Shown here in pieces: positions 33,340 to 61,281 of a DNA stretch of 64,000 nt. Position numbers and translations under genes: made by a program. The notes beneath the pieces are model-generated. The model was not told the DNA's origin. It saw nothing but the letters and a program-made list of their open reading frames with translations, and did no database searches. Position 1 is the stretch's first letter. Each line of letters opens with the position of its first letter. Origin of the DNA: Isoetes taiwanensis (lineage: Eukaryota > Streptophyta > Lycopodiopsida > Isoetales > Isoetaceae); the NCBI GenBank assembly GCA_021234155.1, contig JAJEKV010000002.1, positions 36,495,107-36,559,106 of the forward strand, in the 5' to 3' direction.

Positions 33340-35945
33340 ACAAAAACTCGCTTGAAGATGGATCAAGGATCGTGAGGTGGTGGCATTCTCAAGAAGGTGT
33401 CAAGACCATGAAGCGCATCCGCCGGCCGCTGCCAACCACGCCATTAGCAATATAGATCCAATTCGTGGTGGTATCCGAGTGGCACCTTCTTCCCAATGTG
33501 AGCGGGCGAACAAAAACGCGGATCCCACCGAGATCCGGCCGAGATCCGAGGTGGAGTCCATCCGCATGACCATCCATGACCTTGGTCCAAAAGGGGCGCC
33601 AATCAAAAAGTCAGAACCTGGGGCGTGGAGGTACGCCCGTGGGAAGCATAGGGAGAAGGAACCATGCCCGTGGGCGGGGTTCTTGGCTGTCTCCTGAATT
33701 GACCGACAAGATCCCATCAAGAGCTTGACACCAACGACCCCAAAGAGAAGCAGAGAGTTGAGAGTTGACAGGAGGGCTATCCCATCCCGTGGGGACCGTC
33801 TTGCTATCCAACAGAGCCCGTAATTGATTATAACCTGCGAGGTGCTGCATATAAATTTGTGCATAGGGAAGATCCTCGGATGTCCTAGATACTTCCTTTA
33901 TCATTGCGGCCGCTTCCCTTGCTAGAGAGATAAATGATTGGCAAGCTCGTGCATGTACCCCTCGATGAAGAGTGTGGGTCCGGAAAGCATGATCCGCAAG
34001 ATATGGATTGTTATCCCGAAGCAACCATTGCATAGTGGGGTCACCCCGAAAGAGTCCGGCGCGGCCCATCTCTAAGTGTTCCCGTGTATCACCCGCATAG
34101 AAATCATGAAATATGTAAGCCATGGGCTGAACAACTCAAGGTGATAAAGTCCGATCGGGCATGTTGTAGGAGATCAAAGACCAAAAGGGCACAGCATAAC
34201 CCTTTGTCTTCAATGGAGAGTTCTCGCCAACCAAGAAAATCTGCAAGGTTTCGGGGAATATCCACAGTCCATCCGCCGCATGCCACTTCGAAAAGGAAGA
34301 GGTGGCGCGCGAGCAACCACATAATCGCGATAGCAGGAAGGAACCGGGAAGTCAAAAGGCATTCTCGTTAATAATGGCGGTATGGCCGCAAGTTTTGCTT
34401 GAGCCTCATCGCCAGATCAATAGCTTGCTGCAGCCGTTGTTCAAGATCACGGATCCGGGTTGTCCTTTTCTAGCAAAGAAGCGTGATTGGTCACGGACCC
34501 GCTTCGAAAGTGTTGACTGGAGGAGGATTGCCCCGAGTATTGAGACGGGCACGGCAATCTCCGGGCCATCAAGAATCTTCGCTTTACGCACCTCCGTAAG
34601 CTGATCTTGAAGAGAGGTGAGCCGAGAGGTCTGTAGAAAGCCGAACCGCCAAGGAGGCAATTCGAGCGCCCCCGCCTCAGAAGGTTTTGAACTTGAGTGC
34701 TGAAATTTTCACAAAGTTCTGAGTACAAGGCGTTGAGCTTGGCAATATCTGCAAGGCCCTTGGTACCCGTGAGAGCTTTTGGACTTGGTGTGCTCCAATA
34801 AATTCTGAATTTCGATTGAGCCGAGCCCCGTGATCCGCAAGTTGGCCGACTTGATCCCGGCACTTTTTGAGATCCTCAGTATGAGCCCTGTAAGAGAGCT
34901 CCGTGCTTGTCTTGAAGTTTGGCCTCCAAAGTTGCAACTTGGGCAGTGGCAGCTTGAAGGTCCCGGTGTACCGCCTCAGAGGCCTCTAGTGCCATTTGAA
35001 CCCCGTTCATAAGAGCGTCTTGGGATTCTTGTAACTTGAGAACAGCAGTTTGAGCATCCTGCTGATACTGATACAACAACTGACGAGGGTGTTGTGGTGG
35101 TGGAGCCGGCTGTTGCCTGGTTTGTGATGTTTGGGAAAGATGGTGTGAACTGGATGGTGTAGCTGAGGAGGAGACAGTGACATGGGTGTGCGGATTTTGG
35201 ACATGACCAGTGGAAGAAGGGCGTGAAGTGCCAACTCGGTTAGTCTGTGGAAGGGACCGTTGAGTGGAAGTATGAGAATTTGGTGGTGTGGGAGGGAAGT
35301 AATGACGGATGAGGGCTTGAAGGTGGCCTCCCACAGAAACTTCAGAAATGGAAGTGGCACCCCGAAGGCGGTCCACTTCTTGGAGAAGACGATAGAACAT
35401 CAATTGGGGCCAATCTATGTGGTGGTTGGAGTGTGTAGCAGTGATGACCATGTTATAGAAAGGCTTATTGATATGGGTGTTCTTGATAGAATACCCAAGA
35501 ACTTGGCGCCACGTAAACTTAACAAAGGTTTCGTGAGGCTTGTCGATATTGGTCGACGATGCACATTGGCATGATAAGGAGGTGCACCAAACTCGCGGAC
35601 ATCTAGATCCCGTATGGCGCACCATGATAAACAAGGGGTTTGCAAGGGAATATGAAATACCTCAAAAATCAAATGTTGAGTCAAATGGTGGTGTCATCGA
35701 CCACAACGCTGGTGTATCCATGCGGGTCGTTAACGATATTGGCGATGAACCGCTTCTGCTGATCGATTTGGAGCCGAAGTTCCATTTGAGAGAATTCGTT
35801 AAAGCTTTTGTCGCTCCGGGCCGACTTCTTTATTTGGGCCAACAAGGGCTTCACGGAAAGTGGAGGCCAAGAAGGATACAGACTCAAAAAGAGCCGGATC
35901 CTTGGGAACAAGAGCTTGAAGTGTAGAAAATCTTGGTGCAGCCAT
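33340..35945 (-). pseudogene. Extra sense ORF of Ty3 copy 2 (coiled-coil protein)
   Basis: The start is the minus-strand ATG at 35,945, giving MAAPRFSTLQALVPKDPALF. It is followed by a His/Pro/Ser/Thr-rich linker (SSSATPSSSHHLSQTSQTRQ, about 35,100-35,160) and an Ala/Gln/Leu-rich coiled coil (QMALEASEAVHRDLQAATAQ, about 34,930-35,010). A C-terminal part carries AYIFHDFYAGDTREHLEM (about 34,070-34,120). Several frameshifts and a stop interrupt it. Extra ORFs in this position are known in some plant Ty3 clades; their function is unsettled. I do not recognise a domain. Confidence 0.55.
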
Positions 35946-39905: not shown

Positions 39906-40910
39906 TCAAGATCCGAAAAGTGATAAACACGTTGGATTCGGATTGCAAGGAGCCGTAAGGGTCAAGCAAAGCAACGGCATACCGTCCCGATCAAGAGTCA
40001 TTTCTCCCCAAGGATCGATATTCGGGTAGGATGACGTGAGGCGCACTCGCAGTGGAGCCTGAACTTGATAAATATTCTGAGCTTCTTCAGAATCTGTGTC
40101 TGAGAGAGAGGGTTCCGCATGTTCAACAGAAATGATCCTGCCTGTTTGCAAGTCCATGGTGGCATTGAGGTGACCATCAGTGATGACTAACTGGTCCGTG
40201 GCCCAGTAATGGATACTCTTTTGGCCCTGGCGGAGAAAAGGTCTCACCGACCAACATTTCATAGTCACCGGATCTTCGCCAGCTTTCCAAACTCCAAATT
40301 CCATGGGGAAGCGGAGATCACCGATGTTGATGTGAAGAAGAGGTGTGACGCCTTGAGGTCGCGTGATATGGCCATTAGCCAACTTGATGTCATATGGGGC
40401 ACGAAAGAGTTGTGTGATGCCCATTTGTTTGCGGAGTTTATCCGTGATGAGATTGACTGCGCTACCTCCATCTATTTGAACATGGTTGACTTGCTGATTA
40501 CCCACCGTGGCATGGACCGTGGGTGTAGAGGTAGCTACGTACCCAACTAAAACAGTTGGGAGTGGTAACTGGTCCTTGAGAGCAGGATAGAGTTTCAAAA
40601 TGGTTGCCAAGCTTAAAGGAATTTTGATCTTGGCTAGCTCCTCTTGGAGTTCTAGAGGCACATGAGAAAAAGGATCTGCTGGTTCCACTGGTGCTGGAGT
40701 GCGTGGTAGTGAAGCAGCAACTTCTTTGAGTAAGTCAACCTCTGCAGCAATATTGGGATACGTCTGAGAGCGTGGAGGTTGAGATGTGGAAGGTGTATCT
40801 TGTCTTTGTTGAGCTCTGGTGGTGGCATGAACATTTGCCAATGTGCGGCCTTCAGCAGCTTGCATGAGGTTCAAAATGCTTTGGCGAACTTTTGGCATGA
40901 CATGTGGCAT
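39906..40910 (-). pseudogene. Protease region of Ty3 copy 2
   Basis: A 334-codon open frame. Residues of about 140-155 contain the retropepsin-type active site VQIDGGSAVNLITDKL, with the catalytic Asp kept. The upstream part is a linker rich in Pro/Gln/Thr (TTRAQQRQDTPSTSQPPRSQ); downstream is a beta-rich stretch. The protease cuts the Gag-Pol polyprotein. This is the longest unbroken frame of the element. Confidence 0.85.
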
Positions 40911-40999
40911 GAGCTTCTCAAGTCGTGCAAAGTGAACCTTTTTTCGTCCTCATGAGGAATGGTGTCAACCGCAAAGCGCAGGTTGCGTGCCATTCGAAT

Positions 41000-42640
41000 A
41001 ATGGTCAAGGGGACGTGATGCCCGGTCTGGCGTGAAACTAAACCAACCCAATTTGACTACCGGACTGGAGGATTAAGTGCCTGAAAAATTTCCTCCTGTG
41101 CTTGTTGATCCAGCTGAGGTTGATTTGCTGGAGCTGGTTGATAGCGTGATTGCTGAGGCGCTCTTGGTGGCTTCTTAAGAACTGGTCTCGGGCCTTGTTT
41201 GCCATTAGCAATCCAGAGTTGGTAAGCCGTGAGGCGGACCGATGTGGTCTGACTTGTGCCGGGAAGTCGTACACGAACTTGTGGAAGTTGAGGACACGCC
41301 GCGTGGTATGACCCCATTCTTGACAAAGGATAACACCGAAGCTTTAGAAGGATCAAAAGGAGTACGTGGGTTGGGTCCCCGCTGTTGCCCCCGTTCTTGC
41401 TGATAGAGTTGAGTGGGTTGCACCTGAAGTGGTGGTCTGCTGATAGTGCGATTGTTGCTGAGGTGTGGTTTGCACTTGATAAACCATTTTGTTGCGGAAC
41501 GGTGTGGGATGAGTGCGAGTGCACTCTTCCGTGGCATGATTGCACATGTTGCATCGCTTGCAATGAGGCGGGCCATTGGTGGAGTTGCACTCATTTGCCA
41601 AATGGCCTTGGTATTTGCAAATATGGCACCAGATCTGACTGCGCTGTGGATTAGCGTGTTGAGGCTGAACAGCCGTCTGTGGAACCATGACAGGTGGAAT
41701 GAACGGGAGCTCCGTGGGCTCTTGTTGAAGTTCATTGAGTTGCTTGAGATGAAGTTGATCATCATCCGTGGTCCCATAATGAGACGTAAAAGCATTGAGT
41801 TAGCATTTCCGACCCCATAATGATCTTGTTTCCAATGGCTTTTGTTGGACATGAGCCATTGATGAGGAGAGCCACGCAGGGTGGTGGAAAAGATGTGGAA
41901 TTTCAGTTGAGGTTGCGCATGACCATTTAGGACAGCTAGAGCCTCAAATTCTTCCATGTGGGCCTGAGCACTTTGGTCTAAGGGTTTGCCTTTCGTGTTG
42001 CCAAAGGTGGGATAAGTCAGTTTCAGAGTCTGAAAGGTAGATGTGAAAGTGCTTGGCTGGACAGGAACAGTATAGTGAGGATATTGAGGTTGAGTTGGAT
42101 GTGGCATGGTGCCTGAAGGACCCTGATGAAGGGGTGACTGCGGTTGAGGAGCTTGAGCATTGGTTTTGAGATCTGTAAGGTTGTAAAACAGAAGGGCAAA
42201 GGGGAAATGTAGGGAAAGGATATTCCCCGGTAGGCTTAAAGAGACTTGTGGATATCCTTGCCCACCCGGGGGAGATGATGGTTGTGAAGGAAGAGGCGTA
42301 TGGCCTGAAGAATGATGGATGTAGGCATGTTCAGGTGTATGAAAGTACGGTTGAGAAGGTTGAGCCTGATAGGGCTCCTGATAGTGATGAGGTGAATGAG
42401 GTGACTGAGGTTGTGAGCAATGTTTGCACGCTTGGGGCGGGAACCGGACGAGACAGACACGAGGGGTTGGTGGCGCCGATCGAGCCCTAGACCAAGATGG
42501 CCTCCCTCTATGTCATAAGTAGATCCATACATGTCGCGAAACAGTTTCCCCGACGATGGCGGCCCCAAGCGAGAGGCCGTTCGAGAAAGGAGTTCTTCCG
42601 GGCGTGAAATTTCTACGCACATGGCGACATGTAAGAAAGT
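41000..42640 (-). pseudogene. gag of Ty3 copy 2
   Basis: A capsid-like stretch (HMEEFEALAVLNGH, GSPHQWLMSNKSHW; 41,205-42,107) is followed by two zinc knuckles: CHICKYQGHLANEC (CX2CX4HX4C) and CNMCNHATEEC near 41,560-41,640. The upstream 42,236-42,622 frame gives the N-terminal part. Frameshifts break it near 41,800 and 42,200. In the intact element Gag packages the RNA genome. Confidence 0.83.
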
Positions 42641-45280: not shown

Positions 45281-46588
45281 TTAGAGTAGCTCCTTGTAGA
45301 TGACGTTCACAGTACTTCTGGTTATGTTCTTTGGGGAGAGGAGTATTAGCAGGTCTTGTCTGTTTCGTACACGCGTAAAGGCCGTATATAACTGGCCATG
45401 TGCAAAGACATTTGTGCGCAGATCAATGACCACTCGATCCAATGTTAAACCCTGACAGCTATTAAACGTGGTTGAATACGATAGTCGGAGTGGTAATTGT
45501 CGTCGATGAATAGTCCATGGGCGGTTTTCTGGTTGATAGAAGAAATCTGTTCTGGAAATCGGGTACATGTTCCCTTCTGGATCACCTAAAACCCTCACCA
45601 TTACAAACTTCTCATGCATCGATTCAATCACAACTCTAGCATTCTTCACAAGTCCCTTCTCCATGTCTAATCGTTTCATCACATGACATATCGCCCCCAC
45701 CTTAAGTGTGAGTTCATGATTGGGAATCCCAGAGTGTGTGAAATTATTCAAGAAATCCGATGTTGCGTAGGGATGGTCATGAATAAGTTGGTCTTGTTCG
45801 GTTATATGATCATGGCTGTAATACAACTTATCCTGGTTAGGAACCCTGCTTAAGACCCGACCATTGAAATCGTCAACGTGCCTGTTAATTGGAGCGAGGG
45901 AAACTCGTTTGTCACATTCGACTGGATCGTGGAGGATATTTGTTGGATAGAGGAATTCAACTGTATCTGCAATGTTTGTAGTTATGTTGAATAAATCCAA
46001 CGATACCGTAGTTTGTTCCCAGTTCTCCCCGATATTGTCAACAAAATGCATGAGCTCTGGATCTCCTGCATTTCGTATTGGTTGATGCAACCTCAACACG
46101 CGAAAGACTTTCCATAACGACGATGATTTTATAGATGCACTGAATGCTGCAATTCTTCCCCCACCCTTTACTACAGGTGCGACTTGCCTAAAATCACCAG
46201 CAGCTATGAAATGTTTTCCACCAAAAGGAAGATTGTTTCCACACAGTCGTTGCAACACATGATTTACGCTTTCTATTACGGCCTTATTGGCCATTGGAAA
46301 CTCATCCCAGATAATGACCTTAGCCGCAGCGATGAGTTGTGCTGCTCCTGAATCGGGGTCCAACATCGAATGAAGCCCAGCATTATTTTCAATTACAGGG
46401 ATCTGAAATAGGGAATGCGCCGTTCGCCCGCCTGCATATAGTCGGGCTGCCAGTGCCGTTGTACCACATGGAAGGACTATGCCTCTGTTGCTGCGTATGA
46501 GAAAGCATATGCATTTCAAAACAAATGTTTTCCCTGTGCCAGCTTTTCCATCTACAAATATAGGGTCATTGCTTAGAGGAGATTCCAA
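45281..46588 (-). CDS. Helitron copy B helicase part (Pif1 type)
   Basis: An open frame of 435 residues, a fragment of the Rep-Hel protein. Walker A GKAGTGKT is at residues of about 13-20, followed by Q/T motifs (CGTTALAA), Walker B IIWDEFPM near residue 92 and GDFRQVAPVV near 131. The Helitron helicase signature NRHVDDFN and the C-terminal TFNSCQGLTLDRVVIDL and QLYTAFTRVRN come later, as in Pif1 helicases. It unwinds DNA during rolling-circle transposition. Its upstream end was cut from Rep by the TIR transposon 6 bases before the apparent start, so the apparent Met is not a true start. Confidence 0.88.
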   Translation of the reverse strand: MESPLSNDPIFVDGKAGTGKTFVLKCICFLIRSNRGIVLPCGTTALAARLYAGGRTAHSLFQIPVIENNAGLHSMLDPDSGAAQLIAAAKVIIWDEFPMANKAVIESVNHVLQRLCGNNLPFGGKHFIAAGDFRQVAPVVKGGGRIAAFSASIKSSSLWKVFRVLRLHQPIRNAGDPELMHFVDNIGENWEQTTVSLDLFNITTNIADTVEFLYPTNILHDPVECDKRVSLAPINRHVDDFNGRVLSRVPNQDKLYYSHDHITEQDQLIHDHPYATSDFLNNFTHSGIPNHELTLKVGAICHVMKRLDMEKGLVKNARVVIESMHEKFVMVRVLGDPEGNMYPISRTDFFYQPENRPWTIHRRQLPLRLSYSTTFNSCQGLTLDRVVIDLRTNVFAHGQLYTAFTRVRNRQDLLILLSPKNITRSTVNVIYKELL

Positions 46589-46593
46589 CCATT

Positions 46594-46614
46594 GGGTTAA
46601 AGCATGGTATAGTG
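46594..46614 (+). repeat. Left terminal inverted repeat of 10.1 kb transposon
   Basis: 21 bp, the exact complement of 56,702-56,722. The next bases (GCTCAA) still resemble the right end's inner sequence. Confidence 0.95.
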
Positions 46615-47569
46615 GCTCAATATGTTAGTTTTGCAACATCAAATAATAGATCCAAAATAGTGGGAATTTTAGTCCAAAAATAGCTCCAAGAACTTCGACC
46701 AACTCGAATGGCGAGAATGACGGAATTTTGGGGGGAACTCGTTTGAAGCACCCAAGAGCTTAGCCTTTACCGCATCTCCAGAACCAGATGTTCACACACA
46801 GACGCCTCCATCAAGAACACGATTTGGGGGCTTGCAATTGTGGCGTCAATTAAACAGTTACAACAGGATTTCGAATTTTTCAAGGTCGAATTTGCACTGC
46901 ATGTATTGACAGGGTGACAGGGAAGCTACCATTTGAAGATTCGAAGTTATTGAGTAAGATTGGTTATGCACATAGACTATTACAATTTTTTCTTTAGCCT
47001 TGGCATTCGATTTGCTTCACCCCTTTATTCTAGCTTTGGTGGAACCTTTTAAATCCACTCTTTGGAGTCGGATTTGTGAAGACCTGAGAGAATTTTTTGG
47101 TTCCCAGATAAGATAAATTTTAGATATGAGCAGCAAAGCCATCTAACTGTGGCCAAGAATTTCATATTAAAACTTTTCAAAGGTTGAGCAATATGAAAAA
47201 AGTGGCTGCCATTTAGAATACATTTGTTTTGTTCTGAAATTCTTATTAAAGAAAGCATTGTTGATTCTGACATTATTAAAGTCTCAACGCATGTATATGT
47301 AAATGGTCGTGTGTTTCTTGTTATTTGCTTTAGCGGTGCTTTTGCTTTTATTGAAGCTAACGGTGTAAGTGCACATTTGCGTGGAAGTTTTGCACATTTG
47401 TAAGTCCGCAAAGCTTGCATTTGTATCATTTTTGGTCAGGCCCTAATATTAGTCAATGACTTGCTACATATCAAAGAAAGATAATGATCACGACATAAAA
47501 GAGTTTAGAACACTCATTTTCCCAAAGAAGTCTTTCTTTTTATTATTATAGTCGGTTTGTGGTTTGTAA
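46615..47569. other. Left subterminal region of the 10.1 kb transposon
   Basis: About 950 bp without a gene I recognise. A minus-strand 126-codon frame (47,049-47,429) has no motif. Confidence 0.5.
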
Positions 47570-50110
47570 TTGTGCTTTTCATTTTTATTTTCGGGTTCAT
47601 GGAAGAAGATAAGCGAGCGTGACCGACAAAGAGAGGGGATCACCTATAAGGATTTGTATAAATCTGAGGAGAAGGTCGATGACATTGAGAGATCACGGAA
47701 GATGTGGGGTGAGAAAGTGAAGGGTAGAGCTTGTTACTGTATACAAGCTTCTACAAGAGAAAAGAAAGAAGGAGTTCATGGATCTATACAAGAAAATATT
47801 CAACAGAGATAAAGTTTTAGGCGGGCAGGTTCCAGGTGCTTTAGCGATGGCTTTTGTGTTACATTGCAATGGGCAGACGATAGATTGGCTTAGCTTTTAT
47901 GAGCATGCATCTTCAGCCTCAAGAACTAAAAGAATGAGTCATAGTGCTGAAGATGTCGTTACAATTGATGAAGAGGAGGAGAATGACGTACCTAAAGTCA
48001 TATCGTCTCCAAGAGCACCCAGCTCCTATGTAACATCTAACACTAAGCGAGAGCAACTTCCAAAGACAATCCACAAGGTAATTTAGATGTATCTTTCTTG
48101 TTTGATGAGTGTATAGATAAGTTGGCAGTTTGCCATAGTTCATAGTTTGTGTCTGTGTCGTTTGCATACGTTTAAATTTCTGTTGTTTATTTTGAGCTCG
48201 TGTTCATGTTAGTTACATTTGACATTTGAGTGGCAGTGTTAGTTTTAGTTAGTGAAGTCTTATTTTTAGTTAGTGTTAGAAGTTGTTTATATGCAGTAAT
48301 AGTTGCAGTGGCAGTTAGAACTGGTGGAGTTCTAGTTTGGTGTTCAATTTGCAACTTTGGCGATTCTGATTCGAGTTGAAACTACTTTGAGTTACTGATT
48401 CGAATGTCGATTCTGCAGTGTAGTGTCACCGCGATTCGAGTTGCAACTCTTGTTAGAGTTATAGCTCGAATGTCGATTCTTGCGATGTAGTTCTGATTCG
48501 AATGTTTTTGTTGGTAGTAGTTGCAGGTTGGTGGTAGTTTCAGGTTTGTTTTAGTTTCAGTTAGCTATTAGTTGCGGTTTCAACTCAAACAATGCTCATT
48601 TGTTGTTGCGGTTTGTATATACAATTTTGTCTAATTAGATGCATGTTACAAAGAATGTCAACGGGTTTGAAAGAATGGATTTCGGGGATAGAAGATAAGA
48701 TTAGCAGATTGGCATTGGAAAGCCGTCCAATGAATGACGATGCAATGACTTAACCGACAAAATCAAAGGCCTTGGCGATAAACAAAGCACACTTGGAGGG
48801 TGACATTGGCGGATATGAAGCATTAATTGCAACCTTACCCACTATAGCAAGGGTTGGCATTGAGGTCGTCATTGACCCTCTGAAAAAAGAACTTGGCGAG
48901 ATTACACCATGTCATAAAGGATGCAAGTAGCGACACATTACTTTCAGAAATTTCTAGGGATGGCACATTGGATGAGCTGAAAAAGTTAAAATCTTGTCTT
49001 AAAAAGAATGTTACTTGCTAGACAAACTATGAGTCGATCATTTGATTTGGATCCTTCACGCCACGAGGGAGCAATAGTTATGAGTATCTGAAGGATAGTA
49101 TTGAATTGAACGAAGCGTGCCCATTTTGTCACGGATCATTGAAAACAGATGGCATGCTTCTACCTACCATTGTTGCAATGCATGCATGCGTATCATCTCC
49201 CTTGTTGTCTTGTGCATTTCGTAGTTGAACATTATCACTCTTTTGCCTCATTTTCTTTTAACTATTTAACCATGTATGTCTCTTGTGTAGTGTATCGGAA
49301 GAATGTTTGCGAGATCCATTGTGAGCACAAGATATCAATGACATGGATATCTCTACTTGGTCCGAATCGGACGAAAAAGAGTGCAAATGAACACAATGAT
49401 AGAGTCTTGTGATGGTTGGTTGTACATTTATGATAAGTTTGAAATGATCATACCTTATATTGAGGAATGTTTATGCATGTGGAGCAGATAGGAATGGAGG
49501 ATTTGCAATGGCTGCCTTTACTCCAACATCCATGTCCTCTGCCAAGGAAAACAAAAGTTCTTTGCCAAGACGTTTGAGTGCTGATTTGACCGTTGAAGAA
49601 GAACACAAAAAAGATCGCGTTAGTCATTACTGAAAATAATGTCAAAGAAGGTAATGTAATCTTTGTATGAGTTGAGGTTATATGCATGTTTAAAATGACA
49701 TGCGTTTATGACAGTAGGTGCAGGTTATGAAATTGTTACTGCAGGTTTTGATTCGAACACCAAGGTTAAAGAAGTTTTAGCTGATATTAAGAGTGAAGCA
49801 TGTTTTGAAGTTGAGAATGACATTTATCTTGAAGAGACAGAAGATTTGGCCACAATGTCACTTCCACCAGGTAGCTTATAGAAAAATGGAAAGGTCAATA
49901 AGTGAGTTCTTAGTCCTTACAATATTTAAAGCGTTTGCAGATAAAGAACATATGCCGGAGAGGCCATATCATGGACAAGAACTAAGTGATACTGCATCAT
50001 CACCTAGTATGAAAAGCAAAGTTGATCACAGTCCATGTAAGGAGAAAAGAGGGACTAACCAGGCCTTAAGCAGTCAATTTGAGAAGAAGAATGTTGAGTA
50101 CCACTCGTGA
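47570..50110 (+). pseudogene. Unrecognised spliced gene inside the TIR transposon
   Basis: Plus-strand exon pieces. 47,778-48,078 encodes MDLYKKIFNRDKVLGGQVPG, ends with an acidic patch (DVVTIDEEEENDV) and is followed by a GTAATTT donor. About 48,635-49,020, after ATTAG, contains GDIGGYEALIATLPTIARVG with two stops. Near 49,110-49,150 there is a CPFCHGSL Cys pair. A frame at 49,793-50,110 precedes the HAD ORF. Stops and frame changes show decay. I do not recognise the family. The VVTIDEEEE patch resembles a SUMO-interacting motif followed by acidic residues. Confidence 0.45.
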
Positions 50111-50277
50111 AAAGAATTATGCGTTGAAGGAGCGAGTATAGGCAGCCCGAAACAAATAAGTCAATCCTTGAGATCAGAGGAATCATATTCACCTGGTAAC
50201 TTAGAAATTCCATCTCTTAACTTCCACTTAGTACGTGTTTTTAACATTTAAATTCTACAGGAAGTACAAGAGAGCAG

Positions 50278-51003
50278 ATGGCTACTATAAAGAAAAGTAA
50301 ACGTGGCGGTGACATACATAGCAGTCCCTCTATGTTGCGAATCAATAAGCGGCTTAAACTGCCTATGAAGCTTTTAATTTTTGAGCTTGAAGGAGTTTTG
50401 TGCAAGCTGTTTGAGAAAGGGGAACTATTGCCCAGCAGCCTTCAAGATGATGCAGAGGCAAAGCATCTCAATCTCTCAAAGATATTGGTTTTGCGTCCAA
50501 GAGCATTCGAGTTTTTGGAATGGTGCGTGGAGCACTTCAGGGTTGCTATCTGGACAACATTGACGAGTGTGGCTGCAAATTTAATCCTGAAGCATACCTT
50601 TTCAAGGAGTCTTAGAGACAAGTTGCTATTTACTTGGCACTCAGATGTGTGCACAAACACATCATTTAAAGTGAGCAAAAAGCCTATTCTGCTGAAAGAT
50701 CTCAACAAGGTCTACCACGACTCTAGATACAAGGGAACATGGGCTGAACACAACACAGTTTTGATTGATGACATGTTATACCGCGGCTACAAGAATACTG
50801 CGGGCACAGTAGTGACCCCAAACAGTTATCAGCCATCTCGCCGTGAAGGTAATTTTCTCTTGGAGCATTTGAAACCTTTCCTTGCGGGGCTGTTGGAAGT
50901 TGAGAATGTGAAAGACTACGTGCTTGAGAAGAAACTATCCAATCTGTTGGATAAAGAATCTAAGCAAGCAATGGATATCCTGAAAAAGTTTAAGTACTCT
51001 TGA
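50278..51003 (+). CDS. FCP1-like HAD-family protein with altered active site
   Basis: A 241-residue open frame. Residues of about 30-200 match the FCP1 homology (NIF) domain: LLIFELEGVLC, LRPRAFEFLEWC, VAIWTTLTS, KLLFTWHSDVC, the HAD motif III-IV region TVLIDDMLYRGYKN, and TPNSYQ. The family removes phosphate from proteins such as the RNA polymerase II tail using DxDG(T/V). Here the nucleophile Asp is Glu (ELEG), so phosphatase activity is doubtful, while the later IDD pair is kept. It resembles plant HAD proteins of the Ublcp/FCP1-like type more than SSPs. It may be the last exon of the gene upstream. It lies within the TIR transposon, either captured from the host or an accessory gene. Confidence 0.75.
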   Translation: MATIKKSKRGGDIHSSPSMLRINKRLKLPMKLLIFELEGVLCKLFEKGELLPSSLQDDAEAKHLNLSKILVLRPRAFEFLEWCVEHFRVAIWTTLTSVAANLILKHTFSRSLRDKLLFTWHSDVCTNTSFKVSKKPILLKDLNKVYHDSRYKGTWAEHNTVLIDDMLYRGYKNTAGTVVTPNSYQPSRREGNFLLEHLKPFLAGLLEVENVKDYVLEKKLSNLLDKESKQAMDILKKFKYS

Positions 51004-52790
51004 TGTACCTGATGCCAGATTTGCATTTAACATTTTGGATAATGAAGTTTGATTATGGTTGGTGATTGATCAAAGATCATGTTGTTGCCATCTTGATAAT
51101 GTAAATTGATGTACTTTTTGAACTGCATTTGTTTTTGATGTTCAACATTGTCTCTGCTCTGATTTGGAAGTGCATCAGTTGTAACTAGTTTGGTTTTTGT
51201 ATTTCCTTTGACAGTATTAAGTAGGACTTGCAGAAAAAGATGATTCACATAGTAAATACATTAATAGATCTGGAGAAAAGAAATTACACAGGTTTACGGT
51301 CAAAAAATAAATTACACAAAGTTTACGTCAGATATTAAGGTCTTGTCCAAGTAGGACTTGCAGAAAAAGATGATTCACATAGTAAATACATTAATAGATC
51401 TGGAGAAAAGAAATTACACAGTTTCTGGTCAAAAGAAATTACACAAAGTTTCTGTCATATATTAAGGTCTTGTCCAAGGCTTGTCGAAGCCTTGAGTCCT
51501 ATACTTTTGTGTTAATCTGTTTGTTGTAGAAGAGGATTAGAGCCAGGAACTGAGGTCTTTTCCAAAGAGGTTATCCCATATCTCGTCCAAATAGCAAAAA
51601 ACTGTCTCTGTTAACAAACCTGCAAAAACCAAACAGATACTATTGCATCTCAAAGGAGGCAATACTGTCAATGTATGTCTCATCAGGAATGGTAGGAATC
51701 TTTGGATCATCAGAGTTTATGGCAGTATTGAACAGTTGGTTATAGGATTGAGTGAACAGATAGGTAGTGAATAAGTTCACAGTATTAACTAGCAATGAGA
51801 TTAGCTATAGTTTCACGAAAATTTTGCAAAAGGATAGCAATGAGATTAGCTATAGTTTCACGGAAATTTGGCAAAGTTCACAGTATTAACTAGCAATGAG
51901 ATTAGCTATAGTTTCACGAAAATTTTGCAAAAGGATAGTAATGAGATTAGCTATAGTTTCACGGAAATTTGGCAAAAGGAATGGCTGCTCATGGATTCCA
52001 GGGTGCCAGGGGTCCATGAACAACCAATCCAACCTAAATTTGTGCATAGGTCCAAGACAACTGTGCATCAAGAAGGCATCCAATGCCCCCACATTAACCC
52101 ATTTACTAGAAATAATTTTTTAATTGCTTATATGTGAAGCCCTTTCATTTGGGTTAGGTTTGTGGGATATACGCCAGCAATAACCATTGGTTTTTTTTTC
52201 TAGGGTTCACGGTTCACTTCCTTCCAGATCTGCCCTAAACCTGAAGTCGCCAGCAAGAGTGGTACATGTATGAAGTGATGGGTCCTTCCTATGCATGCGA
52301 ATTCTACTAGGAGCAGAAAAGATGCTTTTTATAAATATATTTGCCTAATTTGGTTGCATGGCCTTTTTGGGTTGGCCTTTTTTTATCTGTATCAGATGCT
52401 ATATTTAGAGCGGGACTTTATGTATGCAATCTGATTTGTTCCAATCTGTTTGTAATATAAGTGTTCATGTTTTGTATCAGGAAGTTTTGTCTTAGAGCCC
52501 TTCCAAATCAAAACAGTGATAATACAAATACACATCCAATCTGATATTTCCAAACCAGAGCAGGGATATTTGTTTTATTCAAGAAAAAGAATAATTACAA
52601 TAGAAGTCCAAAATTTGACTTCAAAATTAATCGTTTGTTGATGATGCAAAGAAAAACATCAACAACATAATAACAGCATACATCATAGCTGCACACAATA
52701 TAAATCAGACCCTTCGATCTGTTTGTTTCACTTAAAGCTTCAAGTACAGGAACTGCAACACTAACTACATTCCAACTGTAAACTGAATAT
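51004..52790. repeat. Transposon middle: two tandem repeat blocks, no gene
   Basis: 51,222-51,473 is a 126 bp unit twice (GACTTGCAGAAAAAGATG start). 51,774-51,976 is a 101 bp unit twice, each made of two 47 bp units (AATGAGATTAGCTATAGTTT), so a nested repeat. Nothing else is recognised between the convergent genes. Confidence 0.85.
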
Positions 52791-55700
52791 TTAATCCTCT
52801 TCGTCTGATAGCACATCAGGGAGATTGTCTAAAATCTTTTCACTGTCAGCTTCACAAAGTTTGTAAACAACCTGGTTTCCTTTCAGCCTATGTTTTGCTT
52901 GTGCCATATCAAGTCTTATTGAGCAAACTTGGGTAGCATAAACAATGCCTTTTGGCTCGTTAGAACATAAAGTGTAACCTGTAAGCGATCTTGGGACTTT
53001 TTTGTAGTAAGTTCCCTCTAAAACTTCTTCCCCTTTATAAAACCAATTCCCATAGGCTTCAAAATCTGTCTGAACCACATATTTCTCTTTCGTACACAAT
53101 AATATCCAAAATAAAGTGTCCTCATCATTGTCCTTTGGAGCGGCGACAAATGGGTTATCTCCTTCCCTTACCAAATCACTCAACACACAGTTTTGCATCT
53201 CCGGAAAATAGAGCTCTTTCGGATCTGCGCCTTCATTCATTCATCAGCTATAGCCTTGCTTGGCTCAACAACTACTGAGCTCCCAATCATCTACATATTC
53301 CTTGTTCAGACACTTCTCCCATTGTGCATCAAGGCAATATGCACAAAAACAAGATAAACGCCTTATATGCAATTGCGTAGGAGATGCTAAGTTAAATGCA
53401 TGCACAGAATGAATGTTCCTCGTGTCCTCCACAGTCTCAGCACCCCATGCATTCTTTCTATCCACATTTTTCACTTCCCAAAACGACCTTCTTCTTGGTT
53501 TCTTGTTCACACTTGAAGATGGAGCAACAAAGTGAAATTCTCCCCGGCTATATTCACAATATCAGCGACACATTCTACTTTTTACGATGTGATCTCTTCA
53601 TCATCTCCCTTAGCCAATTGTTTCAACTCTGCAGCCTTCCCATCATGCTCCCTTTGCGTGATTGGAGCCGAAAAAATTCCACATCATTTCAATGAGTGTC
53701 TCATGAGAATACCTTCCTACAAAATAGAATGGCGGGCAGCTTTGAATTGGGATGCAGCTCCATCCGAAAATACCCAATGCTTTTTGGATGTATGCCCTCG
53801 TTCTTTCATGAATTCGTGATGCATCATAAATGCATGCTGGACCGAATAGTGTGTCATGTTTTGTATCATCAGATATATAGTAATGGGTGTCCTTGATGAC
53901 ATCACCTGATGAAGGCTCCAAATAGTATGTGATTTGTACAAGAATGGTGACCTGTTTGCTTGTCCAGTACGCAGATTGAACTTGATCCCCGCGAATCGAT
54001 TGTGAAGTTCTCTGCAAAGTCTACTACAGATACAATAACCCCAAAAAAGGAGGTTGTCTAACATATCCCTAAACTGCATCGCTTGCCATTTGTGCCTAAA
54101 GCTGTGCACTGGAAACTTTGCCAATCTGTCAATCAATGTGTGCATAAGATCTTTTGGTTTTGTTTTCCTCCACAGACGCTGGAGTACTTTCTTGGGTTTC
54201 CCCCACTTATCCTTACCTCCTTCCTCATAATCCCAAGCTCCCAACTCACAAATCCTTCTTCTGGACAACTCTAGAGGACACACAATTGTAGCCGAGACAC
54301 ACCACACTGCTCACAATCTCCATAAATGCAATCTTTCTTGTGGAATTCTTGATTTTCTTCTTTAGGACACAATATGGATTGCCAGAGCTGAGTGGTTGAC
54401 TTATACTTCTTAGTCTTGGCAGCACATAGTTGGCCTGTAGATTGGCATACCTCACATGCACAGGTGCAACATTCTACATGCATATTTCTAAGTGAATTTA
54501 AGCCATCCAAGAGCATCTGCAGTCTCACATGATGAATGCAACAACATGAATTGAACTGTTTCAATTTCATTACATACCATGGTTTTAGTTTTTCAAATGC
54601 TCTTTGGCCAATTGTAATTTGTGGGTGCTGCTCTTTGAATTTAATGAACATCTCTGACTGCAAAAAACATAATCAAGAAATATGTGAGTAACAAGTCAAA
54701 TAACAAGTACACATGAACATGTAACTCTACTCTAACTGCAACTATAAACTGCCACTGTAACTCACTATGACAACAAAAACACAAACTACAAACATACAAC
54801 CTGCAACTAATGGTCATAACTGCAACACCAACTGTAACTGCAACAAACATAATCACAAACTGCAACCACTGACATAACTCGAACACTTGCTGAAACACTA
54901 ACTGTAGTCTAACTATTTAACATGCTCTCTGCAACACAAACTGAAACTATGTAATGGAGCTCAAACACTAAGCGCAACATCAATGCGGACTAACAACCTA
55001 AGTTGAATCTCAACCACCAACTGCGCAGCAAAGCAGCTTCGAAATGTTTAAGTTGCATATTAAGAACTGTACTTCAAACCTTATTTGCAACACCAACTAC
55101 ATCTACATAAGCTGCAACAACAACTACATCTACAAATGATGCACATATCACCAAAAATCAACAAAAGATAATTTGCACTGAGTATCCTCCGGATAATGTG
55201 TAGCATGTCCCTCCTTCACATTTCTTTCCGGTCTTACGAACTTCACATCCTTTGCATTAGGGGAAACTCTTGTATTTGTGTCCCAAAAACTTTGAACCAG
55301 TTCAATGACATATTTGTCAATTGAATCAAACCTCCGTGACCTTCTAAAATATACCCATCCCTCCTTATTAAACTCCACTTCTTTATGTTTTTCCTTGGTC
55401 GCTGCAATACATCTAGGATGGACTCCCAAAACTTTTCCCAAACTTCTCTTGCTAATAGCTTGATTTAAAGTCTCCTTCCCAATAGACATGGCAAGTACAC
55501 TTCTTCTTGCAGCCATAGAATCTAAACTACTAGATCCTTTTATAGTCCGAATAGATTCTCGAATGTTCTCAATCACATGGCTTTTGACTTCTCAATCCTT
55601 CAAGTGATCAGCGGTGACATCCTTCATTTCTTTGTGCTTCAAGAAATCATTTAGCACTTCCCTTTTATCTTCCAAATCCATTTGACAAACTTGCCTTTTG

Positions 55701-55928
55701 AATGAGAACACTAGATTAGACACAATCTTTTGTTTACTCACTTGATTGGCATAAGCTTTGGACTCCAAAGATCAAAGCATTCTTCTCTTCTTTTTTTCTT
55801 TTCTTTGTTTCCTCTTCTTTAGAGTCTCCTGCTCTCTTGTCCTCTTCCTCTTTCCCATAAAGTTTCTTTGCTCCACTTCTTCCATCTTGATTGCTCGCAA
55901 ACGCCACCTTCGCACCTATAATAGTCAC
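52791..55928 (-). pseudogene. Transposase-like gene, family unnamed, decayed
   Basis: Minus-strand pieces in order: an AT-rich Lys/Glu N-terminus (55,734-55,928); SFWDTNTRVSPNAKD and RNVKEGHATHYPEDTQ (55,148-55,576); a Cys region CCCIHHVRLQMLL ... CTCACEVC (54,440-54,560); and HSFRHKWQAMQFRDMLDNL. Then come VDFAENFTI (about 54,015-54,030), QSAYWTSKQVTILVQITYY, YYISDDTKHDT, WVFSDGAASQFK (about 53,760) and WNFFGSNHAKG (about 53,660). A Cys cluster LSCFCAYCLDAQW follows (53,325-53,365), and a last domain with YGNWFYKGEEVLEGTYYKKV (52,940-53,060) resembles BAH-type folds. Asp in VDFAEN and in FSDGA and an acidic residue near the HAKG motif could form a DDE/D site. The same motif order occurs, from memory, in uncharacterised cnidarian and other invertebrate proteins. 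At least three frames are used between 53,640 and 54,060. Confidence 0.65.
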
Positions 55929-56701
55929 TGCTTACAAAATTAACGAGAAGTAAGAAAGTATCATATAGAAAAGGAATTACATAGCGTAATACTTTAAGTC
56001 TTCAATATGCCAAAAAAAAAATCAGAATTCACCACATTAAACCGGATATATTTTTCATGCATGGCTCTTGAATGCATGCCGGATATATTTTTCTGGATGA
56101 TTACAAGAAGGAAACCAAATCTACATGCAAATCAAACACAAAACAAAGAGAGCACTACAATCAATTTTAATTGCTAGAATGAGAATAATCTGTGATTAAA
56201 AGCAAACTTTGAATGGCAACATACCCAAATTTTAGTCTTCAAACGAAATTTCAAGAGGCCTTACAATCTTGAAATTCGAATTTGATCTTCTGCAAATAAT
56301 AAGAGACCCGAAAAAATTTAAGGAAACCAAAGGTACATGCAAATAAAAAACAAAGCAAAGTCATGTCTATTGAAATCAAATTACAATGAAAGAAATCTTG
56401 GATTCAAAGCAAAGCAACAGACCCGAAATTTTGTCTTCGAAAGAAAGTATGCAAAAAGGCTCTACATTCTTGTAAGGCCGAATTTGATCTTCTGTCAGAC
56501 CCAAATCTTAGGAGAAAGTCCATACATTCTTCTTCATCAGTGATTAGTGATGGTGCACCGAAAATTCTCCCCCAAATTTTGAATTCTCTCGGGCGGGCGG
56601 TGGTGGTTGAAGCAAGGAACGAAAATAGGTAAGTGGCTAACTACCTTTCGAACTAATTTTCGAACTAATTAGGGGGGGACAGGGGGACAACTAAAATAAG
56701 A
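55929..56701. other. Right subterminal region of the 10.1 kb transposon
   Basis: No gene recognised. The motif CATGCCGGATATATTTTTC-type repeats twice near 56,041-56,095, and AAAAATCAGAATTC-rich sequence precedes it. It presumably contains the promoter of the minus-strand transposase. Confidence 0.4.
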
Positions 56702-56722
56702 CACTATACCATGCTTTAACCC
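56702..56722 (-). repeat. Right terminal inverted repeat of 10.1 kb transposon
   Basis: 21 bp complement of the left repeat. It is flanked outside by CATTG, which recreates the Helitron frame. Confidence 0.95.
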
Positions 56723-56727
56723 CATTG

Positions 56728-57690
56728 TTTTATGGAATGAAATATTTCTAGCTGGTTATCATTCATCATACTTGACATTTGAAGCATAGATTCTAGGTAC
56801 GATGCGTGGTCAGAAAATTTTGTTAGCTCGTGCATCACATCTCTGCCAATACGATGTTGCAATTGCAGCCCAAACGCCATGATGTTAGTCCCATGTTGAA
56901 CGCGAATATTATTGACTAAGTGCAGAGATTCATTGAAAGCAATTACATCATCATTAGGATATTCATCTAATAAGTCAAGGCTCATAGGCACCTGAAACTT
57001 GGTCCATAAATCGACTGCTGGTCCCTGATCAAGTATTAACATGGCAAAAAGAAAACGTAGCTGCGTAGGACTCAACGATAGAGAAGTTGCCTCTTCCATA
57101 ACTAGCATTGCTTCATTGTGTGCCGCAAGCAAACCCCCCCGCTTCTGCAGCCTGTTGATATGTCTCATATGTTTGATCATTAACCCTCTTTAATTCATCC
57201 CACGTCCTGGCCGGACGGTGCAACAAAATTTGTCTTAAGTAGAACGCCTCGCCGACCTTAGGTAATAGTAAACGTATTCTACATACTAATGGTTGTCTAA
57301 TCCTTTTCCTCACAATGCTTCGTGTAATTCCTTCTTGCTCTTGTTCTACATATGATCCAGATTCAGATGCTAATGATGGGTTAAAGGGTGTTAACGTATA
57401 TTGTTCGTAGTATTGAATATAAGTCAGCGTATCAAATACATGATCAGGCGGTCGTAAGAAGTATCGATACAACAATGATCTTGTATTTGGTCGCAACAGA
57501 TGCAAAGGCAGACATTTAACAGCAGGGGACTTATTCGTTATGTCGTATGACATTATTCTCCAAGACGCCTCCAGGCCGAAAGGTATCGTGCCTTTAAGTA
57601 CTCACGTATCTCATCTCTAGGAACCGATGCAGTAATATGCGTCTGCGGAATGTTTTCAGAGCAATGACCTGTATTGAGATTTGTATGCGC
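56728..57690 (-). pseudogene. Helitron copy B, Rep-helicase linker
   Basis: Two overlapping frames encode the middle of the Helitron protein. 57,113-57,553 carries WRIMSYDITNKSPAVKCLPL and LPKVGEAFYLRQILLH, which are well conserved in plant Helitrons. 56,716-57,180 carries LFAMLILDQGPAVDLW and LNxLF-type helicase lead-in. A frameshift lies at a run of eight C (57,134-57,141) and another near 57,570, just before LEASWRIM. Otherwise open. Confidence 0.8.
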
Positions 57691-57938
57691 CCCGGGGGAT
57701 TCACATAGTGTAGGCCGTATATACCATGTGAATGGACGATAAGGGGTTTTTTTTAACCTAAAGCGTACGAATACGTACGGGAAGGGGTTCTTTAGACCTT
57801 AAAAAATCCAATCTCTAGTGATGTATTTCATACGGAAAGGGGTTTTTTAGACCTTAAAAAAAGCGTATACGAAGGGGTTTTTTATGACCCCTTCCTCGCA
57901 CATGGCGTATCCCTTATACACTAAGTGATATCCCCGGG
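57691..57938. mobile_element. MITE in Helitron Rep gene, 8 bp target duplication
   Basis: 248 bp with imperfect inverted ends (CCCGGGGGATTCACATAGTG and its near-complement at 57,917-57,938). It is flanked by GTATGCGC at 57,683-57,690 and 57,939-57,946. Removing it and one duplicate restores the Rep frame. The interior has repeats of AAGGGGTTTTTTAGACCTTA. An 8 bp duplication fits hAT-type mobilisation, but that is inference. Confidence 0.85.
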
Positions 57939-57945
57939 GTATGCG

Positions 57946-60772
57946 CATCATTCACTTGTGTACCTCGTGTGATCGGAACTCTCTGCTGATCAAGGCCCGA
58001 TGACGTCTCCGTGTTTGTATGCCTCTCTTGAGTAATTTGAAATCTTGCAGTATCAAAGCCCTTATATATGTAACCATAGAGATAAGAGAAGACATGCACA
58101 GTGGATGCGATGTCAACCATAATATGGCAATCGAGTTCATGAAGCAAGAATGCATTATATGGAACTACCCACGCGTCATCTACACTCCTCCTCCTATATT
58201 GCACGTACCCTTTCGAGTCAAGGTGCGTCGTTGGATTAACTAGCTTTGGATAGTTATAGCAGCAAGAAGCACCACGTGGGGAGCATCTATTAGAATGTCT
58301 ATGCATCATAAATTTTTGGACCTGCGCCCGAATAATCGGATCACTTGGTAGTTCTGCAGATATAATTTCATCAACACATTCTATTGGTATATCTGGTTCG
58401 GTACGTAACACAAGATGCGAATGCGGTAATCCTCGCTTCTGAAACTCTACTACTGTTATTATATAAGATACCCGCTGAAAGAATTTATGCAACAATTCTT
58501 TTAGGCGTTGCAACCTTCCATGAAAACATCGAACAACAGTGATAGGTATATCAGAAGCATTTTGTCCAGGCCCAAGGGCAGCCCTTATTTCTGGCCAATC
58601 CGTGTTAGTCGTCATCGTAACGAATAGAGTTGGCCGGCCTTTTGACCTAGACAATGCCAACGCATCAGCAACCTGTACAGAGCACCACCTTTGACAACCC
58701 AAGAACGACAAAGGAAGGATAACATCATTTTGATTGTCATTTTCTCGCTCAGAGTAATCTTCATCGTATTGAATCCTCCTATTCCTGAAGGCGGAAGTCC
58801 TAAAGTAATTTAGTCGTGCGTCCTCAACCCTTGAATACATATCAACGAGATACTCCCCACATAAGCGGCCTAGCTGAAGGAACCTATCCTCATGCAAGGT
58901 TCTTGCTCTGTACCATTGTAGTTGCGTGAGACCATATTCATTCTTAAGACCCCACCCTGGTGTACCATGCGGAAATAGTAGTGGATATTGCAAAGGTTCA
59001 TACATGGGATCAAGAATATTCATAAAAGTCGGTTCACCCTCATTTCGAGCCCAAAAGCCCGCAACTCGGGATGCAATATCAGCCGTATTGCTGACCTCTG
59101 CAATTGCCGCTATTTCATCGCTCCCAATTATTCCCTCAACTGTAATATATGCCGAAGGCATATGCACACTCCCCATAGTTCGAAGGTGTCTAATAAATGG
59201 ATTTGCTCGATCGAGAATTGAACCAATGGTTGCAACCCACTGAAAGGGCACACCCTGAAGTCCTGCTTGCACATAACGTTGCGAATCGTCATATATATAC
59301 CAGTGTATGGGATTTCCAGTATCTCTTGTTGGAAGCAACCGATGATACGTACGACCCGTGATCGTCACTGATGAAGGGAAGTCCAAGTTGACGAACTCCC
59401 CATCAACTCCAAGCACGCTGAAGCAAAATAGTCTATTTATCTTTCTACATACTCCATTAAAACCCGGCATGTTGTATAGATTAACCAATGCATCAGGCAA
59501 GGAAGGTAACTGCGGGAGCAACCACTTTCCCTTATTACAACAAAACCCATTTTGTTCAACATTCAACAATGGAATATTGCAATACGTGCATCGTTTATTC
59601 CATGTGCACATCGTGAACGTTCGATTAATTGCTGTTCTCATATGTTGTGCACGAGCCTGCCAATGTGTAAGCACCCTTGACACTGAGTCCTCCTCCATAC
59701 TACCTGCTTGCATTTCAATATGGCTAGATGTCGTGCCTGCAGCAGATATATTTGTATGACGTCCTCTGCTTATTAGACGTATACGATCCCTTTCTTCATC
59801 AGGCAAGTTCGCATAACGCTCTCTTCGTCTATGGCGTACTTCATCTCTGTCCCCCTCATTTAACCTTGCATACCATCCTGCTTTGTACGTGTTACGATCG
59901 CTCGCATTTGCCGATGAGTCATTGACCAACTCGTTTTCATTGGTCGTTAACACGTTTAGAGTTGGAACAGTTCTATTTGTTCCATCTCCATGTATGTTTA
60001 CCATTCCAGGTTGAGGCTGTCCTGCCTGATGTCCACTCCTAGCACGAGATGCATCTCGAGCAGCTTCTCGTAAATTTCTATATCGCTCTATTTGCCTACG
60101 TCGCACCTCATCCCTGCCTTCCTCACTCAAACTAGCATACCATCCTGATCCATACGTACTCTGTTGGCCTTCAACTACTGGTGACCCCTCGTGTAACTCG
60201 CTTTCAAATGCAGGTAGGACATCCAAATTTGAAACAGATTCACTTATCCTAATTCCAGCTGCAAAGGAGGATTCACGTAAATTTGCATACCGTTCCCTTC
60301 GCTTACGACGCACTTCCTCCCGATCTTCCTCACTCAATCTAGCATACCAGTTCGAGTTACAGGTATTCTTCTCACCTGCAACTACCGGTGACCCCTCGAG
60401 TAGTCCGCTTTCACTAGCAGACGGAACATTTGCACTTACAGCAAATTCGTTTACCGTAAGTCCATTTGTATGCAAAGGAGCTCCATCTAAGTCGTTAGTC
60501 CTCCCAGGTTGACGTTGTCTTGGTCGTCGTCTCGCCCTCTCACGTACCACCTCTCGAGCAGCATCACTCAAGCTTGCATGCCGCTCTCGCTCCCGCTGTT
60601 GACTCCTCTCCCTATAATCTATTTCTGGTAGAGCACGAGGGGTCTCTCCTATCTGCCCAGCTAGATGCCATCTAGCACGATCTCTTGCCATTGCTCGCAA
60701 ATTTACATACCGTCCTATCCTTCTAGATGAGTTATCATCCATATTCAATGCAAATTCTATTGCGACGCGCAA
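57946..60772 (-). CDS. Helitron copy B Rep (HUH endonuclease) part
   Basis: A 952-residue open frame whose last few codons lie in the MITE. The N-terminal 330 residues hold at least three copies of a repeat of the type WYARLSEEDREEVRRKRRER (Arg/Glu-rich). The central part carries CTYCNIPLLNVEQNGFCC (zinc-like) and the conserved PHGTPGW. The HUH site GLPHSHLVL and the tyrosine motif YLYGYIYKGF (two Tyr) near the end are the nicking and joining residues of Helitron Rep. No stop or frameshift inside, so it was recently active. The first Met was chosen because the frame opens there; earlier exons may exist upstream, as in copy A. Confidence 0.92.
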
Positions 60773-61281
60773 TGATGTAGAAGAAGACTTACATGTCTGT
60801 CTACTCTGCGAATACCTTCCATTCGGATAGATAGCAATGAGATTGGGAATCTGTAATTAGGATCAAAGGAATTGCATTATTAAGGTAGCTCATCATGCAT
60901 TACATGACACAACCATCTAGTACATACATGGCATCTAGATATCACATCCATCAGCTCACAACATATACCTTGTATAATGAGTTTATTGTGATGGAATTAT
61001 ATTGATAGTATATTACGCGTAAATAAAAAAAATACATATATCTAAATCCGCTTAAATACGCATGGTTACCTAATTATCATTTGCCGGGGAACAAGCACAC
61101 TTGGAGAGCGCTGGCATAATCCATAATTCATCCCACATTATATACCTTACGTAACATGTTTATTATAACGAAAATATATTCAGAGCATATTACGACTCAC
61201 AAGAAAAAAGTATCCTATAATATGTCCACGGCAGTGGCAGTATCATCTAGTTATCATAAGCACATAACATGATCAAGTCAT
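60773..61281. other. Upstream of Rep, no gene
   Basis: AT-rich; no open frame or motif that I can support. It probably includes the intron or promoter region of the Helitron gene. Confidence 0.4.

Follow-up and report, generated by a model that had tools for sequence, protein, structure and literature searches.

The Sola superfamily of DNA transposons is described, in the parts of the sources available to us, as having a DDD transposase, a 4-bp target-site duplication (TSD), terminal inverted repeats (TIRs) of 11-1124 bp and lengths mostly of 2-9 kb, with some elements above 15 kb (PMC10741241). Within the same limits, Sola is listed for the moss Physcomitrella (PMC10741241; table in PMC9033089) and SOLA elements for the fern Azolla (PMC6786969), curated Sola1 elements of bivalves have a mean length of 5.4 kb (PMC10294476), the Sola2 duplications of two amoebozoa are AT-rich, and chimeric Sola2-Fanzor elements occur in amoebozoa (PMC3627910); the superfamily is also treated in PMC4455052. 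Here we analysed a 64,000-nt stretch of contig JAJEKV010000002.1 of Isoetes taiwanensis, hereafter the window, and the element that occupies its positions 46594-56722. We read this element as the decayed copy of a large DNA transposon of the cut-and-paste type, with Sola as its probable closest named kind, that carries a RING-like/NIF module convergent to its transposase gene; we give this reading a probability of about 0.8.

Ends, insertion site and genomic copies

The element had originally been predicted to be one mobile unit with perfect 21-bp inverted ends, a short target duplication and a host Helitron frame that closes upon its removal, and each part of this description was borne out (coordinates in Table 1). 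The end 14-mer, with up to one mismatch, occurs at two places in the window, both of them the TIRs, while 0.03 would be expected by chance. Deletion in silico of the element and one CATT restores a host frame with 0 stops across 219 codons, which continues into the Pif1 helicase of the Helitron; the other two frames of the joined site contain 20 and 18 stops. The joined site is matched at 1 to 3 mismatches by 16 genomic places (control, 0), which represent empty sites, and the junction CATT is present in 15 of them. The perfect ends, the CATT duplication, the closing Helitron frame and the 16 empty sites together establish that window positions 46594-56722 are a single TIR transposon, a mobile unit with its own transposase.

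Further copies with the same ends and duplications were looked for and found. Genome-wide, the 20-mer of the ends is matched 97 times in forward and 89 times in reverse orientation at up to 2 mismatches, against 0 for the control. From 100 listed places of this 20-mer we drew all facing TIR pairs less than 50 kb apart and inspected the resulting 24, the window copy included. An exact 4-bp duplication lies outside the GGG...CCC ends in 20 of these pairs, about 0.1 being expected (1 in 256 per pair), and its sequence differs among them (CATT, ACAG, TTAT, TCCC, GTAG and others). A 6-bp duplication, CCATTG, fits the window copy and three others when they are taken singly; it was rejected, as the TIR of nearly every pair includes the outermost base and duplications of 4 bp are the rule. 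The TIR pairs L001/L002 and L014/L015 are 47 kb and 29 kb apart. As they retain an exact 4-bp duplication despite this distance, they may hold nested insertions or be giant versions of the element.

Fifteen sibling copies measure 10.5-16.0 kb, ten of them 12.2-13.3 kb. Most align with the window copy over 5 kb at its left end and over 5 kb at its right end. Both gene regions are common to the siblings, and most contain about 2.5 kb that the window copy lacks. The window copy is thus a degenerate, internally shortened and frameshifted relic of a larger element. The open reading frames (ORFs) of the missing middle region, judged by eye only in four siblings, did not reveal a convincing extra gene. 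Beside the site of the missing sequence stands a tandem 101-bp repeat (99% identical; window 51773-51974), and interleaved 76-bp and 48-bp repeats lie near it in mid-element (51219-51478). Among 14 copies the pairwise difference averages 6.6% of aligned bases (range 3.9-10.3%), which suggests that they stem from an old burst.

Transposase and superfamily placement

The motif set given in the original prediction is present in full on the minus strand, with VDFAEN at 54024-54007, SDDTKHDT at 53873-53850, FSDGAASQFK at 53770-53741 and NHAKG at 53663-53649, but frameshifts split it over frames. A BAH-like domain proposed alongside these motifs lacks Pfam support. The window gene aligns with its relative P0001 as three pieces, each in a different frame; when 16 copies are read by column majority, the gene would have two exons separated by one intron. 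A genome search with the 618-aa query built from this majority reading returned 80 rows, which correspond to 71 loci at 45-95% identity once nine second-fragment rows are dropped. Fifteen of the 80 rows are free of stops, and three of these cover nearly the whole query (C1033:1677488, C928:1080305 and C23:260672).

The intact relatives P0001 (L069) and P0002 (L070) are 46% identical to each other. Their invariant acidic residues are D213 in VVDFAEN, D263, D264 and D268 in ISDDxxHD, D298 in FSDGAASQFK, and E337 and D339 in HGKGEHDG. By eye, strand- and helix-like segments follow one another around these motifs in an order that would be compatible with an RNase-H fold, in which D213, D298 and D339 would form the triad. 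Further stop-free relatives, 41-43% identical to P0002, are found at C623:442714-444573, C1089:16101636-16103504 and C1035:17003170-17005041; they apparently form additional clades, and possibly were active recently.

Searches of Pfam, NCBIfam and the PDB with the transposase gave no credible match at E up to 10. The best PDB match, a muscarinic receptor at E=0.034, is at chance level, and no Pfam transposase model was matched at E<=10. As regards target sites, hAT elements duplicate 8 bp, piggyBac TTAA, and PIF/Harbinger and CACTA 3 bp. The duplications of MULE are 7-12 bp long and those of Tc1/mariner are TA, according to the available part of one description (PMC10741241). With varied 4-bp duplications and no Pfam transposase model at E<=10, we reject hAT, MULE, Tc1/mariner, piggyBac, PIF/Harbinger and CACTA, in line with the original prediction. 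No match to the motif strings was returned by a literature text search, and scans of viral and genome contigs, made with short back-translated patterns and hence weak as negatives, detected no relatives beyond this genome. A similar motif order may occur in invertebrate proteins, which we take as a lead only.

The claim that the family cannot be named is only partly correct: Sola, as far as the available descriptions go, is a named superfamily with the same anatomy. We consider Sola the probable closest named kind of element, because the TSD length, the size and the TIR length all fall within its published description. Judged by description, the Isoetes element resembles Sola in its 4-bp TSD; its TIRs of 21 bp and the siblings of 10.5-16.0 kb are within the Sola range, the latter above the usual size. 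The acidic triad would be of the DDD type, and the occurrence of Sola in a moss and a fern is a further point of likeness in the parts of the sources at hand. Unlike the AT-rich Sola2 duplications reported in the accessible part of the work on amoebozoa, those of the Isoetes element are not AT-rich, and neither a NIF nor a RING-like partner gene appears in the available parts of the Sola descriptions examined. Sola2-Fanzor elements, judged by their description in PMC3627910, are likewise transposons with a 4-bp TSD and an additional protein, but Fanzor1 is a protein of another kind.

Alternatively, the transposase could define a separate, unnamed superfamily which has only the 4-bp duplication and the acidic triad in common with Sola. 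The lack of any credible match in Pfam, NCBIfam or the PDB would be expected in that case, as would a distinctive motif set that stays invariant at 46% identity. Absence from Pfam proves little, however, as Pfam may contain no model of Sola, and the agreement in TSD length, size and TIR length with the published Sola anatomy, in the portion available, speaks against separation. We regard a separate superfamily as possible but rather unlikely.

The convergent RING-like/NIF module

The most distinctive feature of the element is a gene on its plus strand that the original prediction did not mention, which encodes a phosphatase-like domain. Both the window ORF (38.6 bits) and the protein P0003 (61.1 bits) score above the curated cutoff of 21.8 for PF03031, the NIF family of the HAD superfamily, and the nearest PDB chain of P0003 is 3shq, UBLCP1 (E=1.1e-4). 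A coiled-coil/RING-like region precedes it; its zf-rbx1 match (E=0.0034, 18 bits) remains under the curated cutoff of 31. The genome contains at least 150 NIF relatives detected with the window query and at least 150 detected with P0003, which represents a distant subfamily, for a combined 278 distinct places.

Catalytic motif I of HAD phosphatases is DxDx(T/V). In the window and in 10 of the 15 siblings this motif reads FELEGVL; two further siblings have FELEGVF, in two it is scrambled, and one does not cover it. It is FELDGVL in L072 and LDFNGVL in P0003, so that the first aspartate is retained in P0003 only, being replaced by glutamate in the window lineage and L072. The later HAD motifs LKD and IDD are retained. 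The module thus resembles the NIF phosphatases in its profile match and later motifs, and differs from them in being transposon-borne and in its nucleophile position. Because of the glutamate at that position, phosphatase activity appears doubtful in the window lineage; it would be possible in the P0003 lineage.

The association of the two genes was assessed by comparing the 71 transposase loci with the 278 listed NIF places at a distance of up to 15 kb. A NIF region is found near at least 41 of the 71 loci, for a chance expectation of about 0.0013 per locus. In at least 40 cases it is downstream and convergent (tail to tail), and at one locus, on C909, it is upstream on the same strand. Convergent NIF regions accompany at least 23 of the 36 transposases above 60% identity to the query and at least 17 of the 35 at 60% or below. 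As identities were counted through stops and frameshifts, a small number of the loci between 55% and 60% belong to the window's own family and are decayed. The gap between the genes is 0.9-1.4 kb in 14 of the 17 low-identity loci listed, and these 14 include the loci whose transposases are 49-54% identical to the query. For the RING-like region, 150 listed rows were merged to 122 loci and compared with the NIF places of the window-query list plus one P0003-query place: a NIF region follows on the same strand within 6 kb at 72 of the 122 listed loci, 64 of them at 1.0-1.7 kb. A convergent RING-like locus is present within 15 kb of 24 of the 71 transposase loci, among the matches listed. Partnership with NIF is seen in the window lineage and in two other groups, but not in the P0002 group.

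We also compared rates of non-synonymous (dN) and synonymous (dS) substitution. Between the transposases P0001 and P0002, dN is 0.49 and dS 3.34 (dN/dS ~0.15); between the window NIF and P0003, which are 43% identical, dN is 0.59 and dS 2.40 (dN/dS ~0.25). As dS is near saturation in both comparisons, these ratios are rough; at about 0.15 and 0.25, they indicate that both the transposase and NIF have evolved under constraint.

No description of a NIF-carrying transposon was found in the literature searched, which covered NIF with transposase, Sola and accessory-protein topics in the accessible parts of papers. As far as this literature shows, a phosphatase-like module in several transposon subfamilies is new.

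Points against this reading and remaining alternatives

Several findings weigh against a Sola-like transposon with a convergent module. The TSD is absent in four of the 24 facing TIR pairs (L045/L046, L053/L054, L057/L058 and L067/L068), the transposase sequence matches none of the named transposases in Pfam, NCBIfam or the PDB, and the Isoetes elements are longer than bivalve Sola1, which averages 5.4 kb in the part of the source available (PMC10294476). In the window copy, the transposase and the RING-like region are broken, and nothing points to present activity of that copy. Its lineage has glutamate for the nucleophile aspartate of NIF, which argues against phosphatase activity there. Among the matches listed, 30 of the 71 transposase loci, including that of P0001 itself, have no NIF within 15 kb. 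For the P0002 type, a set of 50 loci was obtained from 78 rows. It excludes second fragments and the 19 loci that had entered the count before, and inadvertently also those on C104 and C1003; only one of the 50 has a NIF within 15 kb among the window-query matches listed. In this case (C1046:8037433-8038071 / 8041896-8043725) the NIF region is upstream and divergent, in contrast to the convergent arrangement of the 40 pairs above.

The NIF and RING-like genes could be passengers that stem from a single capture of host fragments and play no part in transposition. FELEGVL at the nucleophile in the window lineage would fit such a history, as would the lack of a listed NIF within 15 kb at 30 of the 71 transposase loci and at 49 of the 50 P0002-type loci. 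It is harder to reconcile with open NIF frames at many loci that are about 40% identical to the window NIF, with the NIF dN/dS of about 0.25, and with an order and spacing that hardly vary even where the transposases share about 49-54% identity with the query. We judge a passenger origin unlikely.

A member of the CMC group (CACTA/Mirage/Chapaev) or an Academ element with a diverged transposase is very improbable. Chapaev and Academ make 4-bp or 3-4-bp duplications, which would agree with those observed, but CACTA ends begin with CAC, those of the Isoetes element start with GGG, and no Pfam model of CACTA or any other transposase is matched. That the TIRs arose as a chance inverted repeat or through an assembly join is ruled out by the 97 and 89 genome-wide ends, the TSD in 20 of 24 pairs and the 16 empty sites.

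Beyond the element, three long minus-strand ORFs of the window (41205-42512, 39906-40949 and 34876-35661; 435, 347 and 261 aa) had no Pfam match at E<=0.001.

Table 1. Features of the element and its insertion site, in window coordinates.
Feature	Position	Strand	Remarks
Host Helitron (Rep and Pif1-helicase ORFs) split by the element	45281..60856	-	Pfam PIF1 1.3e-44, Helitron_like_N 2e-31
Left TSD, CATT	46590..46593	.	Repeated at right end
Left TIR, 21 bp	46594..46614	+	Perfect match to right end; genome-wide matches to 20-mer
ORF kept in sibling majority reading; possible first exon of accessory gene	47721..48086	+	No family match
Coiled-coil and RING-like zinc-finger coding region, frameshifted in window copy	48652..49225	+	Pfam zf-rbx1; coiled coil by eye
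NIF/HAD phosphatase-like domain in open 252-aa frame (50245-51003)	50338..51000	+	Pfam NIF (PF03031) E=1.1e-9
Approximate place of ~2.5 kb missing from window copy, present in most siblings	51755..51756	.	Sibling comparison
Transposase exon 2: Cys/His cluster, VDFAEN, ISDDTKHD, FSDGAASQFK, NHAKG (HGKG in relatives), C-terminal domain; frameshifted	52794..54654	-	
Transposase exon 1 (N-terminal region)	55178..55885	-	Probable start and intron boundary, from sibling reading
Right TIR, 21 bp	56702..56722	-	Perfect match to left end
Right TSD, CATT	56723..56726	.	Same as left copy

Discussion

The ends, the 4-bp TSD, the empty sites, the dispersal through the genome and a transposase frame constrained between relatives describe a transposon whose mode of movement would be cut-and-paste. 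The transposase would bind the GGGTTAAAGCATGGTATAGTG ends and cut the unit out with an RNase-H-like DDD active site, formed by the aspartates of VDFAEN, FSDG and HGKGEHDG, and insertion would proceed through a 4-bp staggered cut. The accessory module, which runs convergent to the transposase and comprises the coiled-coil/RING-like ORF followed by the NIF/HAD phosphatase-like domain, would most likely benefit the element through an effect on the transposase or on the chromatin, transcription or protein turnover of the host.

A bolder and only tentative view is that these elements form a plant superfamily that is separate from Sola or branches deeply within it, and which has retained the RING-like and phosphatase-like module across transposases about 49-54% identical to the query and controls its transposition by it, via host transcription, ubiquitin, the silencing machinery or the transposase. 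If true, such an accessory system would differ from the cargo that other DNA transposons are known to have captured.

The analysis provides defined ends, a duplication length and empty sites for a group of transposase-like proteins that lack a credible Pfam match. Should transposition depend on the NIF module, the element would be a DNA transposon in which a partner gene of signalling type is conserved, and we know of no other such case. As stop-free relatives exist in the same genome (15 of 80 rows, three of them near full-length), the activity of the family can be tested.

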